Assembly: GCA_030620115.1 (NCBI GenBank)
Contig: JAUXFG010000204.1
Coordinates: 1-5,893, forward strand
Direction: 5' to 3'
Source: Candidatus Fermentibacterota bacterium
Lineage (GTDB): Bacteria > JAFGKV01
Length of the DNA stretch: 5,893 bases
Shown here: one piece after another, positions 120 through 5,826 of the stretch
Layout of the letters: every line of letters starts with the position of its first letter
Position numbering within the stretch: position 1 is the stretch's first letter
The notes under the pieces: model-generated
Seen by the model: the letters and a program-made list of their open reading frames with translations, nothing else
The model's database searches: none
Told to the model about the DNA's origin: nothing
Position numbers and translations under genes: made by a program

Positions 120-1379
120 ATGTCAGCCATAGACATGCCGCCAACTGATCTACGGCCTCAAAACCAACAACTCCTGGAAGAACATCTTTCAGCCATCTCG
201 GAAACGCTCTCCACAGGGATGCCGGGTTTGAAAAGCCTGATACTTGGAGGTTCGTTCGGGAGGGACGAAGGCACAATGGTCATTTTTGGAGACACGTTGA
301 GGCCGTTCAAGGATTACGACCTTTTTGCGGTTGTGGAACAAGGATTGGTCCGGGAAGCTGCGGCGAGGATCCCCTCTCTTCGCGAGAGAATTTTCCGGGC
401 ACTTGATCTGGCTCCCTACTCGGAAGAGCATCCTTCTCCTGGTCGCTTCCAGATCAGCCTGGAGATCATCCCTGAGAACGCCCTCCCATACCTTCCCAAC
501 GACATAAGCAATGCGGAACTGAAACTCGCGAGCCGGCTCCTGTGGGGGCAGGACCTTCGGGAACGGATCACCGCGGATCCATCGCGTATTCATCCTGTCA
601 GTGGTCTTCGCCCGGTATTGAACAAACTCATCGGAATCCTCGAACAATGGGGACCCTGGGTCGATGAAGGGCACCACCCTGGTTCTGAGCTTGCATGTGC
701 GGTTGCGTATCACAAGGCGAAAGTAATACTAGATGCGTCGGCAGCTCTGTTGCTCCTTCGGGGGGAATGGGTGCCGGGGTATGCCGCACGGTTGGATGTG
801 GCCCACGATCTGGAAAGAGCCGGTCCGCTCCACCCCCGACTTGGTTTGCTCACTCCCCGTATCGAGGAGGCCTTCCAAATCAAGCTGGATCCACTGAAAC
901 ATGAGCCAGATGATCCCGCACAGCTCTGGGAAGCGGCCAGGAAAGAGCTGCTTGAGATCGTGGAGATCATCTCCAGTGAGGTCCTCGGATACGAGCCCGC
1001 GACTCCTGAGAACGGCTACTACGAATTTCTCGCGCATGCAAGATGGAGCTTGCTTAGACCCTACGCAGAAGACTTGCTTCGAGTCTGGGGGCTCCCTTTT
1101 GCCGCACGGTTCGCACCGTTCATCGTGGCTGCTTATTCTCTTGCCGAAAGCGCGCGAGTCCGCAGCCTACACCTGATTCATCCTCTCATCAGATCATATG
1201 CGTGCGCATGGGCGTGGTTGGGGGCAGGAATGGGGCCGGAGGAGCAGCGCCGATTATCCGCCTGGATAAGACCTCTGCTGCACGGGATCCCGGAATCACG
1301 CCCCGGCATGCGCCGGGGGATCATCGAGCTGTTCAAGGCTATCTCCACAAAGAAACGAATAAAGAGATCTTTCGCATGA
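120..1379 (+). CDS. Nucleotidyltransferase-like protein (Pol-beta superfamily)
   Basis: This is a 419-residue, probably cytoplasmic protein. It carries the Pol-beta-type nucleotidyltransferase signature GGSFGRDEG at residues 43-51, followed by DYDL at 65-68, whose two aspartates (D65, D67) would bind the catalytic metal. E115, in the strand QISLEI, is a candidate third carboxylate. The rest (about 165-410) is mostly helical and ends in a basic tail (KKRIKR). The motif spacing recalls GlnD-like and antibiotic nucleotidyltransferases, but I do not recognise a characterised orthologue and the acceptor is unknown. The family moves an NMP from an NTP to a protein, nucleic acid or small molecule. 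The ATG at 120 is the first start in this frame, which is otherwise open to the window edge; ATG at 135 is an alternative. Neither has a Shine-Dalgarno sequence. The gene leads the operon and its stop overlaps the next start, suggesting linked expression and a role in glycan metabolism. Confidence 0.8.
   Translation: MSAIDMPPTDLRPQNQQLLEEHLSAISETLSTGMPGLKSLILGGSFGRDEGTMVIFGDTLRPFKDYDLFAVVEQGLVREAAARIPSLRERIFRALDLAPYSEEHPSPGRFQISLEIIPENALPYLPNDISNAELKLASRLLWGQDLRERITADPSRIHPVSGLRPVLNKLIGILEQWGPWVDEGHHPGSELACAVAYHKAKVILDASAALLLLRGEWVPGYAARLDVAHDLERAGPLHPRLGLLTPRIEEAFQIKLDPLKHEPDDPAQLWEAARKELLEIVEIISSEVLGYEPATPENGYYEFLAHARWSLLRPYAEDLLRVWGLPFAARFAPFIVAAYSLAESARVRSLHLIHPLIRSYACAWAWLGAGMGPEEQRRLSAWIRPLLHGIPESRPGMRRGIIELFKAISTKKRIKRSFA
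1301..1318. other. Short GC-rich hairpin near the gene 1/gene 2 junction
   Basis: A perfect 7-bp inverted repeat (CCCCGGC at 1301-1307, GCCGGGG at 1312-1318) encloses the 4-nt loop ATGC. A 10-nt palindrome, CGGGATCCCG, lies just before it at 1283-1292. Both sit inside the last codons of the first gene, about 60 nt before the second gene's start. They could affect translation of the second gene, or could simply result from Arg/Pro/Gly codons in GC-rich DNA. There is no U-run after the stem, so it is not a terminator. Confidence 0.3.
1361..1366 (+). promoter_or_regulatory. Weak ribosome-binding site for gene 2
   Basis: The purine stretch AAAGAG lies 9 nt before the ATG at 1376 and is a weak Shine-Dalgarno candidate within the end of the first gene. 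It supports starting the second gene at 1376 rather than at the upstream in-frame ATG at 1202. The ATGA overlap would also allow re-initiation by ribosomes that have just finished the first gene. Confidence 0.35.
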
Positions 1380-2512
1380 GACCAGAGACGACGGTGCTGT
1401 TCCTGATCGATGGCCTCAGGCATCGAGATCACCAAACCCCCTGCAGAATCATGCCTGAACTGGGTTTCCGTTCTGTGGAGGCAAGCCTCTTCACGGGAGA
1501 ACCCCTGTCTGTACATCAGCAGTGGACAGACTACGAGCACACCGAATCCTCTCCTTTCTTGCCTGTCTGCCGTACCCCGGGACTGGCTGCGATATGGGAT
1601 TGCTGCCCCCGTCCGGCCAGACGATACATGAACTTCCTCATCTACAGATTATCGTCCCTGATCCATGGGATGGTGCTGCCCCGCTCCAGCATGATCCCAC
1701 CTGGTTTTCTCTGCCGCAGTCGGCCCACGCAAGACCGCTGCCCTGATTCCTCCCGTGCCTACGGGGAGATCGAATCACTCTTCGATCTCCTGCGAGATCA
1801 AGGACGATCCTGGCTCTACCTCGCGCCTCCAAAGATGGGGTTTCTTGGGGCACGGGACGAGAAGGTGGAATCACGCTTCTACGCCTCTCTATCCTCAGGC
1901 GTACGGGATTTCTACTATATCAAGTTCGGCGATCTCGATGGGATCAGTCATGCCTTTGGCCCTGATAGTTCCCAGGCACGCAGGTGCATTGTGAGAACAA
2001 AGCGCAGGATCCGCGCCATCTGCTCTGCACTTTCGCGCAGATCCTCGCACCTGCGATGGATCCTCCTTTCCGATCACGGATTCCTCCCCGTGACTTCCCT
2101 CATCCCGCTTCCCACCTGGTTGCCCGGCGCGCTTGCCGAGGGCACGCTCCAGCACTACTTTGTAGATTCCACATTGCTCCGGCTCTGGTTGAATAGGCCA
2201 AGCGAGAGAGACAATATCATTCAGGAGCTGCATACATGGGGAGGGGGAGATCTTCTGTCGGAAGAAACGCGGGAGCGACTAGGGCTCGCCTGGGGATCGC
2301 CACAGCTCGGTCATATCGTCTGTGTTGCGCCGCATGGCGCCATATTCTGGCCCGATTTTTTCTCGGCAAAAGCTCCAGTCGGCATGCACGGCTATCAACC
2401 GCATCCCGACTTGGTTTCGCCCATTGAGACACATGGGTTGGGGCCGTTGCCCTCGGAGATGGATCATGTTTTTGTGGGGCGCTGGCTCAAAGAAGTATTG
2501 CGGGATTCATAG
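1376..2512 (+). CDS. Alkaline phosphatase superfamily protein (type I phosphodiesterase-like)
   Basis: This is a 378-residue soluble enzyme with metal-site motifs in family order: D12 in LFLIDGLR; DGISH giving D188 and H192 with GP after it (family DxxxH..GP pattern); D233-H234 in LSDHGF; and H338 in GMHGY. These match the Asp and His ligands of the two-zinc site of nucleotide pyrophosphatase/phosphodiesterases. The LFTG at 38-41 matches the conserved TG after the nucleophile, but the usual Thr ten residues before that Gly is Phe31; Ser33 is the nearest hydroxyl. The family cleaves or transfers phosphoester groups. There is no signal peptide; the hydrophobic start is the first beta strand, so the enzyme is probably cytoplasmic. 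The frame is open from 1202, but those 58 extra codons overlap the first gene and lie before the first family strand, so I start at 1376. The start forms an ATGA overlap with gene 1. The substrate is unknown. Confidence 0.82.
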   Translation: MRPETTVLFLIDGLRHRDHQTPCRIMPELGFRSVEASLFTGEPLSVHQQWTDYEHTESSPFLPVCRTPGLAAIWDCCPRPARRYMNFLIYRLSSLIHGMVLPRSSMIPPGFLCRSRPTQDRCPDSSRAYGEIESLFDLLRDQGRSWLYLAPPKMGFLGARDEKVESRFYASLSSGVRDFYYIKFGDLDGISHAFGPDSSQARRCIVRTKRRIRAICSALSRRSSHLRWILLSDHGFLPVTSLIPLPTWLPGALAEGTLQHYFVDSTLLRLWLNRPSERDNIIQELHTWGGGDLLSEETRERLGLAWGSPQLGHIVCVAPHGAIFWPDFFSAKAPVGMHGYQPHPDLVSPIETHGLGPLPSEMDHVFVGRWLKEVLRDS

Positions 2513-2530: not shown

Positions 2531-3745
2531 ATGAGTAGCAAAGTCCTTGTTCTCGCCACTACCTTTCCGCGCTGGAAGAACGATACCGAGCCTGCGTTCG
2601 TCTACTACCTCTCGGAATTCTTGGCCCAGAGATCATTTTCCATGACGGTCCTGGTTCCCCATGCCGGCGGCGCGGCATTCCGCGAACGACTGGGTTCACT
2701 GGAGGTAAGACGTTTCCCGTATTTCCGGCCATACCAAAGGCAGAAGTTGTGCTACAATGGCGGAGCACTCCCGAATCTGAGGAGATATTGGCTCGCACGG
2801 TTCCAGCTGCCCCTCTTCCTCCTCGCGCAACGGAGAGCAATCACCCATACGATCAAGTCGGAACCATGGGACCTGGTGCATGCCCATTGGATCGTGCCGC
2901 AGGGCTACTTGGCCACTGCCCCCTGCCGGCGGCGAAACATCCCACTCCTTCTCACCGCCCATGCCGGTGACGTGTTCGCCATGCAACATCCCCTGGTGCG
3001 ACTTTTTGCCACCCACGCGCTCCGTCAGGCGGTTTCGTGTACGGTGAACAGCAACGCCACCGTGGAAGCTGTGCTTAGGCTTCACGGGAACAGCACCGTA
3101 AATCTCGTGCCCATGGGCGTGGACCTGGGACTGTTCCATCCAGGGCTCCCCGACGAGGGCATTACGAGGCGCTTCGATCTCCGTGGCAAGACCATCCTTG
3201 GCGTCGGCCGTTTTGCCCCAAAAAAGGGATTCCAGCATCTTGTGAATGCGGTCCATATTCTTGCCGGGCAGTGGAAAGAAATCCGGCTGCTGCTAATCGG
3301 CTTTGGTCCGGAAGAGGACGCCCTGAAAGCGCAGGTGAAGGATCTCAAGCTGGAGGATACCATCAAATTCGTGGGCAAGATCAGTCACGCGGAACTGCCG
3401 AAGTACTACCGGACGTGCCAGGCCTTTGCCGCGCCGTCGGTGGTCCTCCCCAGCGGCGATACTGAGGGTCAGGGCGTGGTTCTCTTGGAGTCAATGGCCT
3501 CGAGCGTGCCCACAGTGGCCTCCCGCGTGGGGGGAATCGTGGACATTGTGGAACACGAGATGAACGGTCTCCTGGTACCGCCTGAGGATCCGAAGGCCCT
3601 GGCGGAGGCACTTCGCCGCGTGCTGATGGACGAAACATTAGCCTCTGAACTCACCAAGAACGGCATCGATACCATACAAAGACGATTCTCTTGGGAGAGC
3701 ACCGCGGACCGCTTCGCTGAACTGTATCAAAGAATCATTGGATGA
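2531..3745 (+). CDS. Glycosyltransferase family 4 (GT-B, retaining)
   Basis: This 404-residue protein is a typical GT4 length and has two Rossmann-like halves. The N-terminal half opens with LATTFPRW and has FVYYLSEFLA (23-32), HAHW (117-120) and HAGD (144-147), as in acceptor-binding halves of polysaccharide GT4 enzymes. The C-terminal half has GVGRFAPKKG (224-233), LLIGFGPE (254-261) and the family E-x7-E motif with E312 and E320, which binds the nucleotide-sugar donor; VGGIVDIVEH and NGLLVPPED follow. It would transfer a sugar from a nucleotide sugar to a lipid-linked or growing glycan on the cytoplasmic face of the membrane. It resembles colanic-acid and exopolysaccharide GT4 enzymes, but neither sugar nor acceptor can be named from sequence. 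It starts 18 nt after gene 2, with a weak AGG at 2521-2523 seven nt before the ATG, and overlaps gene 4 by 4 nt. I see no truncation or missing key residue. Confidence 0.93.
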   Translation: MSSKVLVLATTFPRWKNDTEPAFVYYLSEFLAQRSFSMTVLVPHAGGAAFRERLGSLEVRRFPYFRPYQRQKLCYNGGALPNLRRYWLARFQLPLFLLAQRRAITHTIKSEPWDLVHAHWIVPQGYLATAPCRRRNIPLLLTAHAGDVFAMQHPLVRLFATHALRQAVSCTVNSNATVEAVLRLHGNSTVNLVPMGVDLGLFHPGLPDEGITRRFDLRGKTILGVGRFAPKKGFQHLVNAVHILAGQWKEIRLLLIGFGPEEDALKAQVKDLKLEDTIKFVGKISHAELPKYYRTCQAFAAPSVVLPSGDTEGQGVVLLESMASSVPTVASRVGGIVDIVEHEMNGLLVPPEDPKALAEALRRVLMDETLASELTKNGIDTIQRRFSWESTADRFAELYQRIIG

Positions 3746-5826
3746 TCCCCATCTTCTTCTGGATCGTGGCGGCCATGGCAAAAGGTGGCGGCACAGCCAG
3801 GGAAGTCGATATTCTCCCTGCCGGGCTCGACATGTGGAGAATCGAACCCATCATCATGGCCAGTGAAGCCTACGCCGGTCTTGAACTGCTCATGGATTCT
3901 CCTCTACCGGTCCCCCCGACGATCGGCGGTATGGGAGAATATACACTCAGCGTCCGGGAAGACTCCGCACTCACCTACATTCACGCTTCTTCCCCTGAGC
4001 TGTTCTCTACGGATGGTGTAGTCATTCATTCGAAGCAGAAACCCGCTGCCGGGGCCCTGCTTCGAGCAGAAGTCTGCTGGGATGAGAAAGAAAGAGAATG
4101 CCTTCTTCGAGGCCCTGCACACACCTGGCATTTCTCTTCGTCCTCTCCGATCCCAGAGCCCTGGGCTCTGATGAACTGTCACGCTCTGCCCCCAGAAAAG
4201 GAAAAGAACGCCCCTCTGGTCCTTTACACCCAAGGGCAGGGAACCATTGAAACCAGCCCGCGTTGGCAGGGACTCGACTCCTCTACTCACCCCGTGGCAG
4301 TGGTCCAGATGCTGGTGCATTCAGGACTGGGTACCGGCGTCTTATCCTGGGACTGCTCTTCACTCGCCGGCTCCGGCAGGATGGGATTCTCGCTTTCCCC
4401 CAACGGCCAGTGGATTCAGCAAATCGTTCCACTCTACAAGGATCCCAGATGGTCGGGAGAAGTCACGCGGCTTTCTCTGCGCCCTGTGGATCATCCGGCT
4501 CGCGTGGAGCTCGATTGGATACAGTTGCCGCGTCTGGCGGGGTTCTGGGCATACCTTCTGCGTTCGTCCCTTGGCAGATGGCTCTTCTTCGCGTTATTGA
4601 CACTGATCCTTTCCGCCATCTCTCGATCAGTGCTCACAAGAACCACTGCCGACGCGGTTTCTGTTGGTTTAGTGGGCGGGGCCGCTTTGCTCCCGGTTGT
4701 GCTCCCCTTCAACGAGCTGGTTCCTTCCCTCTCGTGCGGACCTGTTGTCGTCCCGATCTACCTTCTGATTCTGATGATCACTGCGGCGATGGCTCACTGG
4801 GGTCGGCGGCCCTCTGCCGTAGAGATGACGGCGTACTGCTGTATTCTTTTCACGCTAGCCCATGGCATGGTGGTAGCCAAGGGAGCTGGACTGGCCACGG
4901 CAGTAACCCTGCTTTGTGCGCCGCTCGCATTCTTGGCAGGTCGAGGGATGGCCAGAAGAGGGTATGGCAGGGGGCTTTCCGCAATAGTAATCGGGGGAAA
5001 TGCACTGATCTGTGTTTGTGCCATGCGGTATCACACCGCGGCGAGTGACCCTCTGTACGGCACGCTGCTCTCCTCCATCGGTAGACTCTACTGGGACAGC
5101 ACCACTGCTGGTCGATCTGCAGGCGCTTTTGTACATCCACTCGTGCTTGCCACCGTAGCGGCAACGCTTGGAAGCTCGCTCCTTGTTCGCCCTTTCAGAC
5201 CCATGGTTCTGACGATCCTTGCGGTTGCTCTATTCGTCATATCCGGATTCTCCACCATGTCCCGGTCTTTCGTGCTGATCACCGTGCTCATTGGTTCCAC
5301 TGCGTTCCTCCAGAACAGGCGACGCGCGGTCTGGGCCGCGGCGGCGGTAATGATCTTGGGATTGATATTGGTCTTCACTTTCCGTGCATCTCGAGACCAA
5401 GGCCTGCGCCGGGCTCTTCATGGGGACAAGCGTGGAGCAGGCTTTCAAGTGGCAACGGCCACGATACGCGCAAAACCCATCCAGGGAGTCGGCTGGGGGC
5501 GCTATTCTCGCGCCCTTGATCGCTTTGGCCCTGCTCATGCGAGGCTCCGCTCTTTCACCACCCCCGACAACAGCTATGTAAGAATCCTGACCGAAGCCGG
5601 CATCGTGGGGGCTATGGTGTGGCTTGTGTGGCTCGCGCTGCTCGCCGTGCGTCTGGGGCGGCATAAAGGCGTCCATGGGGGGATTATCTCACCGTGGATC
5701 ATGCTAGGTGCTCTCCTCTTCATGGCCGGTATCTTCGACGCCCTCTACTGGCCTGCCGCGGCTGTCCCCTGCTTCCTGTTGCTCGGCTGCATGGGAGGAG
5801 AAAAACTGGTGAGAAATGCAGTTTAG
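3742..5826 (+). CDS. O-antigen ligase/polymerase-like membrane protein with N-terminal beta-rich domain
   Basis: This is a 694-residue protein in two parts. Residues 280-690 hold about twelve hydrophobic segments and O-antigen ligase/Wzy-type motifs: GRSAGAFVHP (457-466), SRSFVLI (507-513), a polar loop at about 548-618 with PIQGVGWGRY (579-588), and PDNSYVRILTEAGIVG (608-623). Such proteins join or polymerise lipid-linked glycans on the outer face of the inner membrane. Residues 28-265 are hydrophilic and look beta-rich, ending in a pattern (W237 and LSLRPVD, then VELDWIQL at 255-262) like carbohydrate-binding jelly-roll domains. Known ligases are usually 400-450 residues, so this part is an addition. 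Residues 2-13 are a short hydrophobic stretch without basic residues: a weak signal anchor, or not one if translation starts at Met12 (3775). A stop codon eight codons upstream fixes the ORF limit. The ATGA overlap with gene 3 suggests coupling. Ligase or polymerase cannot be decided here. Confidence 0.8.
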   Translation: MIPIFFWIVAAMAKGGGTAREVDILPAGLDMWRIEPIIMASEAYAGLELLMDSPLPVPPTIGGMGEYTLSVREDSALTYIHASSPELFSTDGVVIHSKQKPAAGALLRAEVCWDEKERECLLRGPAHTWHFSSSSPIPEPWALMNCHALPPEKEKNAPLVLYTQGQGTIETSPRWQGLDSSTHPVAVVQMLVHSGLGTGVLSWDCSSLAGSGRMGFSLSPNGQWIQQIVPLYKDPRWSGEVTRLSLRPVDHPARVELDWIQLPRLAGFWAYLLRSSLGRWLFFALLTLILSAISRSVLTRTTADAVSVGLVGGAALLPVVLPFNELVPSLSCGPVVVPIYLLILMITAAMAHWGRRPSAVEMTAYCCILFTLAHGMVVAKGAGLATAVTLLCAPLAFLAGRGMARRGYGRGLSAIVIGGNALICVCAMRYHTAASDPLYGTLLSSIGRLYWDSTTAGRSAGAFVHPLVLATVAATLGSSLLVRPFRPMVLTILAVALFVISGFSTMSRSFVLITVLIGSTAFLQNRRRAVWAAAAVMILGLILVFTFRASRDQGLRRALHGDKRGAGFQVATATIRAKPIQGVGWGRYSRALDRFGPAHARLRSFTTPDNSYVRILTEAGIVGAMVWLVWLALLAVRLGRHKGVHGGIISPWIMLGALLFMAGIFDALYWPAAAVPCFLLLGCMGGEKLVRNAV

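Follow-up and report, generated by a model that had tools for sequence, protein, structure and literature searches.

A Wzy_C-family membrane protein of Candidatus Fermentibacterota with a carbohydrate-binding-module-like domain predicted in front of its membrane part

Members of the Wzy_C superfamily (Wzy polymerases as well as WaaL and PglL ligases) work at the periplasmic face of the membrane, where they transfer lipid-linked sugar chains. How Wzy-type enzymes grip the growing chain and how its length is controlled is an open question, and the control known so far resides in separate proteins. A histidine of the periplasmic loop is equivalent in E. coli WaaL (H338), PglL (H349) and MagA (H323) (PMC3643930, PMC3485256). 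Its substitution in MagA (H323A) abolishes capsule production, and the Wzy proteins of K. pneumoniae K57 and K62 have an aspartate at the position of the MagA histidine (PMC3485256).

A periplasmic CBM-like jelly roll on a membrane glycosyltransferase is known from another enzyme superfamily, namely the GT-C arabinosyltransferases EmbC, EmbA and EmbB. EmbC depends for its activity on its CBM-like subdomain, which binds the acceptor glycan; mutation of a Trp residue in this part diminishes both acceptor binding and activity (PMC3044687). In the open-access literature searched, no paper was found that describes a CBM on a Wzy_C enzyme. The protein described here shares with the Wzy_C superfamily (MagA/Wzy, WaaL, PglL) a Pfam match above the cut-off, many membrane spans and a set of MagA-equivalent residues; it differs by Asp609 in place of the conserved histidine, by a large N-terminal beta region predicted to be periplasmic and by the lack of a C-terminal extension. 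It resembles EmbC in bearing such a module, whereas the module studied in EmbC is C-terminal and no sequence kinship with EmbC was seen.

The membrane enzyme and its locus

The analysed stretch of DNA (the window; 5,893 nucleotides of Candidatus Fermentibacterota contig JAUXFG010000204.1) carries at 3742..5826 a gene for a membrane protein of 694 residues, recognized by its open reading frame, its PF04932 match and its orthologs; all features of the window given below lie on the same, forward strand. The reading frame opens at 3721, and the ATG at 3742 is the only possible start since the frame from 3721 contains no other start codon. Residues 276-693 (4567..5820) form a multi-spanning membrane domain with 13 helices predicted from the structure model and loop charges, a large loop at about 550-610 and a positive-inside pattern, in line with the ~10-13 spans expected for Wzy_C. 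The match to the curated Pfam profile PF04932 (Wzy_C, "O-Antigen ligase"; 36.4 bits, with a threshold of 31.7; E 5.5e-9) covers residues 493-628 (5218..5625) and includes the large periplasmic loop. Judged by these sequence features, the protein is a Wzy_C enzyme. The search of NCBIfam returned no match above a cut-off, and the whole 694-residue protein has no match in the PDB by sequence.

Several residues of the protein can be aligned with those of MagA: R564, P579, G582, G584, N610, G620 and G623 correspond to R290, P305, G308, G310, N324, G334 and G337. Arg564 (5431..5433) precedes P579 by 15 residues, as R290 precedes P305, and the spacing D609-G620-G623 equals that of H323-G334-G337. From the functionally important MagA set R290, G308, H323 and G334, the protein has Arg564, Gly582 and Gly620, and the histidine is replaced by Asp609 (5566..5568, followed by Asn610, Gly620 and Gly623) in all three orthologs; the loop histidine typical of WaaL (H338 in E. 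coli) is absent from them. Of 99 Wzy_C frames scanned, 95 show HN or HS at this place of the loop, and the three orthologs show PDN. As the conserved histidine is replaced by Asp609, both ligase and polymerase remain, and a polymerase role appears at least as likely as a ligase role. The earlier note, made from the letters of this DNA, had called the protein O-antigen ligase-like; this is only the name of the Pfam family, and the label of ligase is not established.

The phylum of the window was sampled by three genomes, one of them being the window's own (4.1 Mb, 296 contigs). The full-length protein is also encoded in the Ca. Eisenbacteria and Ca. Fermentibacteria assemblies (37% identity each), in both with a GT4 gene directly before it and a methyltransferase gene after it. 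The upstream neighbour in the window is likewise a GT4 glycosyltransferase gene (2531..3745), whose stop codon shares an ATGA with the start codon of the Wzy_C gene. Further upstream in the same operon lies a gene of the phosphodiesterase/alkaline-phosphatase superfamily (1376..2512; PF01663), assigned by Pfam and neighbourhood comparison. The conserved block is headed by a gene with a nucleotidyltransferase-like motif (120..1379; GGSFGRDEG..KDYDLF) and without a Pfam match. This head gene is kept at the ortholog locus L010 (4355-5590), again with the phosphodiesterase-superfamily gene next to it. The L010 block continues with GT4, Wzy_C, methyltransferase, GT2 and B12-binding radical SAM genes, along with additional GT2, methyltransferase and NAD-epimerase genes; the gene neighbourhood at L010 is of the surface-glycan type.

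Layout and fold of the N-terminal region

The region before the membrane domain consists of a short hydrophobic segment, beta domain A and module B. The segment (residues 2-13; 3745..3780) resembles a signal peptide or anchor by its sequence and is helical in the full-length model; the N-termini of the orthologs (MILLFVTALLG.. and MITLVVLAQLA..) are of the same kind. Domain A (residues ~20-114; 3799..4083) is defined by strands present in both structure models and shows 20-40% identity among the three orthologs. Module B (residues ~129-262; 4126..4527) is a probable CBM-like beta sandwich according to profiles and model, with 37-41% identity among the orthologs. Its final strands harbor the signature LSLRPVDHPARVELDWIQL (residues 244-262; 4471..4527), seen in the alignments. 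The residues W237, G239, L244, S245, R247, P248, D250, W259 and I260 are invariant in the three orthologs. The motifs quoted in the earlier note were found where it had placed them (W237, LSLRPVD at 244-250, VELDWIQL at 255-262).

Both structure models are all-beta across the N-terminal region, and the first membrane helix is predicted to start at about residue 266-276, which agrees with the ~265 beta-rich residues that had been proposed to precede the first span. These residues had been taken for a single domain; there are two. K or R residues occur in each loop predicted to be inside, and the N-terminal region falls outside. This positive-inside pattern puts the predicted beta region outside the membrane, on the periplasmic side.

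The prediction was based on three sequences only, and the mean pLDDT was 42.5 for the full-length model and 52.1 for residues 19-272 alone, where most of module B reached 60-73. For module B, modelled mostly at this confidence, the best matches among CBMs were CBM86 (Z 7.7, 112 residues aligned, rmsd 3.6) and the CBM of RfCel9A (Z 7.6, 110 aligned, rmsd 3.0). Together with CBM22/27/28/29 and with the domains by which BcsB (Z 7.1) and AlgX (Z 6.8) bind sugar, these matches span Z 6.6-7.7. Toxins and capsid proteins with jelly rolls were matched as well. The search of these low-confidence models against the PDB gave nothing at Z 8 or at Foldseek E 0.001. The models are consistent with a jelly roll in module B and do not prove this fold, because every structural match lies below Z 8.

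Residues 1-273 have no Pfam match up to E 1. For domain A, no convincing relative was found in 386 genomes; the best outside match (E 0.005) covers part of the model. Matches of the first model to CBM35 and other sugar-binding domains (residues 17-113, Z 4.4-5.7) were set aside as too weak. The carbohydrate-binding jelly-roll pattern that the earlier note saw at the end of the region is supported for module B, the only one of the two domains for which relatives were found.

Relatives of module B and the order of domains

Relatives of module B were gathered iteratively, starting from the Wzy_C family of the window, with profiles of three, seven and then twenty rows. The three-row profile detected one further copy in the window's genome and weak ones elsewhere, and the seven-row profile matched in 21 of 386 genomes. 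With twenty rows, 42 of the 370 genomes from a single large phylum gave matches. Module B is carried by WbsX/GH99-like proteins, by GH65C-type proteins, by a sulfatase and by many membrane proteins; several of the membrane proteins match PMT_2, and in them the module always follows the membrane spans. No Pfam family covers module B, and neither the window protein nor 20 module sequences match a CBM family of Pfam.

A profile built solely from module sequences outside the window's phylum recognized the window protein with E 3e-13 (best of 835 decoys, consisting of other ORFs and shuffled copies, 0.47), and a profile-profile comparison gave a probability of 98.6% over 129 columns; these tests are not fully independent, since the relatives had been recruited via a profile containing the window's family. 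Residues 489-626 of PDB chain 8GTC_M match the twenty-row profile with E 2.9e-8 (2.7e-7 without the window's phylum) and are a sequence-profile relative of module B along its whole length. The match required the wider module profile: the PDB search with the three orthologs alone gave nothing significant. In contrast to the window protein, this domain sits in a phage tail tip protein. Residues 482-629 of the roseophage R4C megatron protein were described as a carbohydrate-binding domain by their CtCBM11-like topology (PMC10276861), and the binding of the 8GTC_M domain is assigned by this likeness. The search of viral contigs with the full alignment found no relative. Taken at the level of profiles, a relationship of module B to a carbohydrate-binding jelly-roll module is supported.

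In other copies of the module a His and a Tyr residue are almost always kept; all three orthologs lack them, as does the aligned stretch of 8GTC. For this reason the ligand site in the three orthologs may differ or be lost. W141 and W237, found throughout the relatives of the module, probably belong to its core.

The order of domains in the window protein is unusual. The earlier note held that extra domains of this family are normally C-terminal, and this is so in the sampled proteins: about 90 other Wzy_C open frames, picked for high score and partly for length, have their extra length at the C-terminus and contain no convincing N-terminal extracytoplasmic domain. Among the loci examined with the module profiles in ~750 genomes, module B occurs on a Wzy_C protein only in the window's phylum, namely in the window protein and its two orthologs. 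One Wzy_C protein (L111) seemed to have an N-terminal extension of 560 residues and was set aside, as the extension looks like an Arg/Pro-rich out-of-frame run-on. At another locus (L118, G037:C107), a GT4-like part and a Wzy_C membrane domain share one open frame, being either a fusion or an artefact; an exact-match check did not support adapter sequence as the cause of the joined frame.

On PMT_2-type glycosyltransferases and similar multi-pass proteins, unlike in the window protein, module B is C-terminal, after the spans, and in place of Wzy_C the membrane domain is PMT_2 or unassigned. Among the 42 of 370 genomes with matches, many have such a C-terminal copy on PMT_2-type glycosyltransferases, and it was seen in other phyla too (L163-L190 and others in the phylum of G062; L028, L029, L031, L034-L039). 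In the window's phylum, each of the three genomes also encodes another multi-pass membrane protein, more than 1000 residues long, that carries module B at its C-terminus (L041:29-1945, L044:1405-3396 and L045:1381-3402) and has no Pfam match in the part read.

Possible role of the N-terminal region

We consider it fairly probable that the protein polymerizes or ligates glycans in the periplasm and that its tethered CBM-like module B holds the chain or the acceptor. The inner-membrane Wzy_C enzyme would act on lipid-linked sugar chains at the periplasmic face; its N-terminus would insert via the short hydrophobic segment and display the two beta domains in the periplasm. By analogy with EmbC, module B would most likely keep the growing or acceptor glycan near the catalytic loop (Arg564, Asp609). 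In this way it could raise processivity or select the acceptor, as the CBM-like domain of EmbC does on mycobacterial arabinan. We infer the binding of sugar by module B, as well as its sugar and the effect on the reaction. A sugar-binding-like module placed at the front end near the active site is an uncommon but understandable arrangement for retaining a chain. It is a more speculative and rather unlikely extension that these proteins represent a Wzy-type polymerase lineage whose built-in periplasmic glycan-binding head sets processivity or chain length, replacing a Wzz-type regulator or acting besides it.

The beta region may also be a platform for protein docking or assembly, receiving a chain-length regulator, an exporter or an acceptor protein, with no sugar binding. 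Jelly-roll domains have many roles, the shared tryptophans are probably core residues, the protein lacks the His and Tyr of the module signature, and domain A is private to this Wzy_C family; yet the identified hosts of module B are mostly carbohydrate-active enzymes and its solved relative 8GTC is annotated as carbohydrate-binding, and we regard this reading as unlikely. A PglL-like ligase role in O-linked protein glycosylation, with the N-terminal region recognizing an acceptor protein, is improbable. PglL does belong to the same superfamily (PMC3643930), but the histidine conserved in PglL and WaaL is an aspartate here, NCBIfam gives no match over a cut-off, and no candidate acceptor gene was seen adjacent, either in the window or at L010. 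The idea that an assembly or sequencing error fused two genes, or that the N-terminal part is open by chance, can practically be dismissed despite the fragmented draft (296 contigs), because three separate assemblies carry the same fusion with 37-41% identity in module B.

The covalent attachment of a carbohydrate-binding-like module means that it can be deleted or mutated in a test system with product length as the readout. Since the uncurated module B recurs on PMT_2-type glycosyltransferases and on glycosidases in many genomes, measuring the binding of a single member would be informative for a broad family.

The genome G185, from a small phylum, contains at least 18 module B matches (L140-L157), many of them in WbsX/GH99-like proteins and some arranged in tandem.
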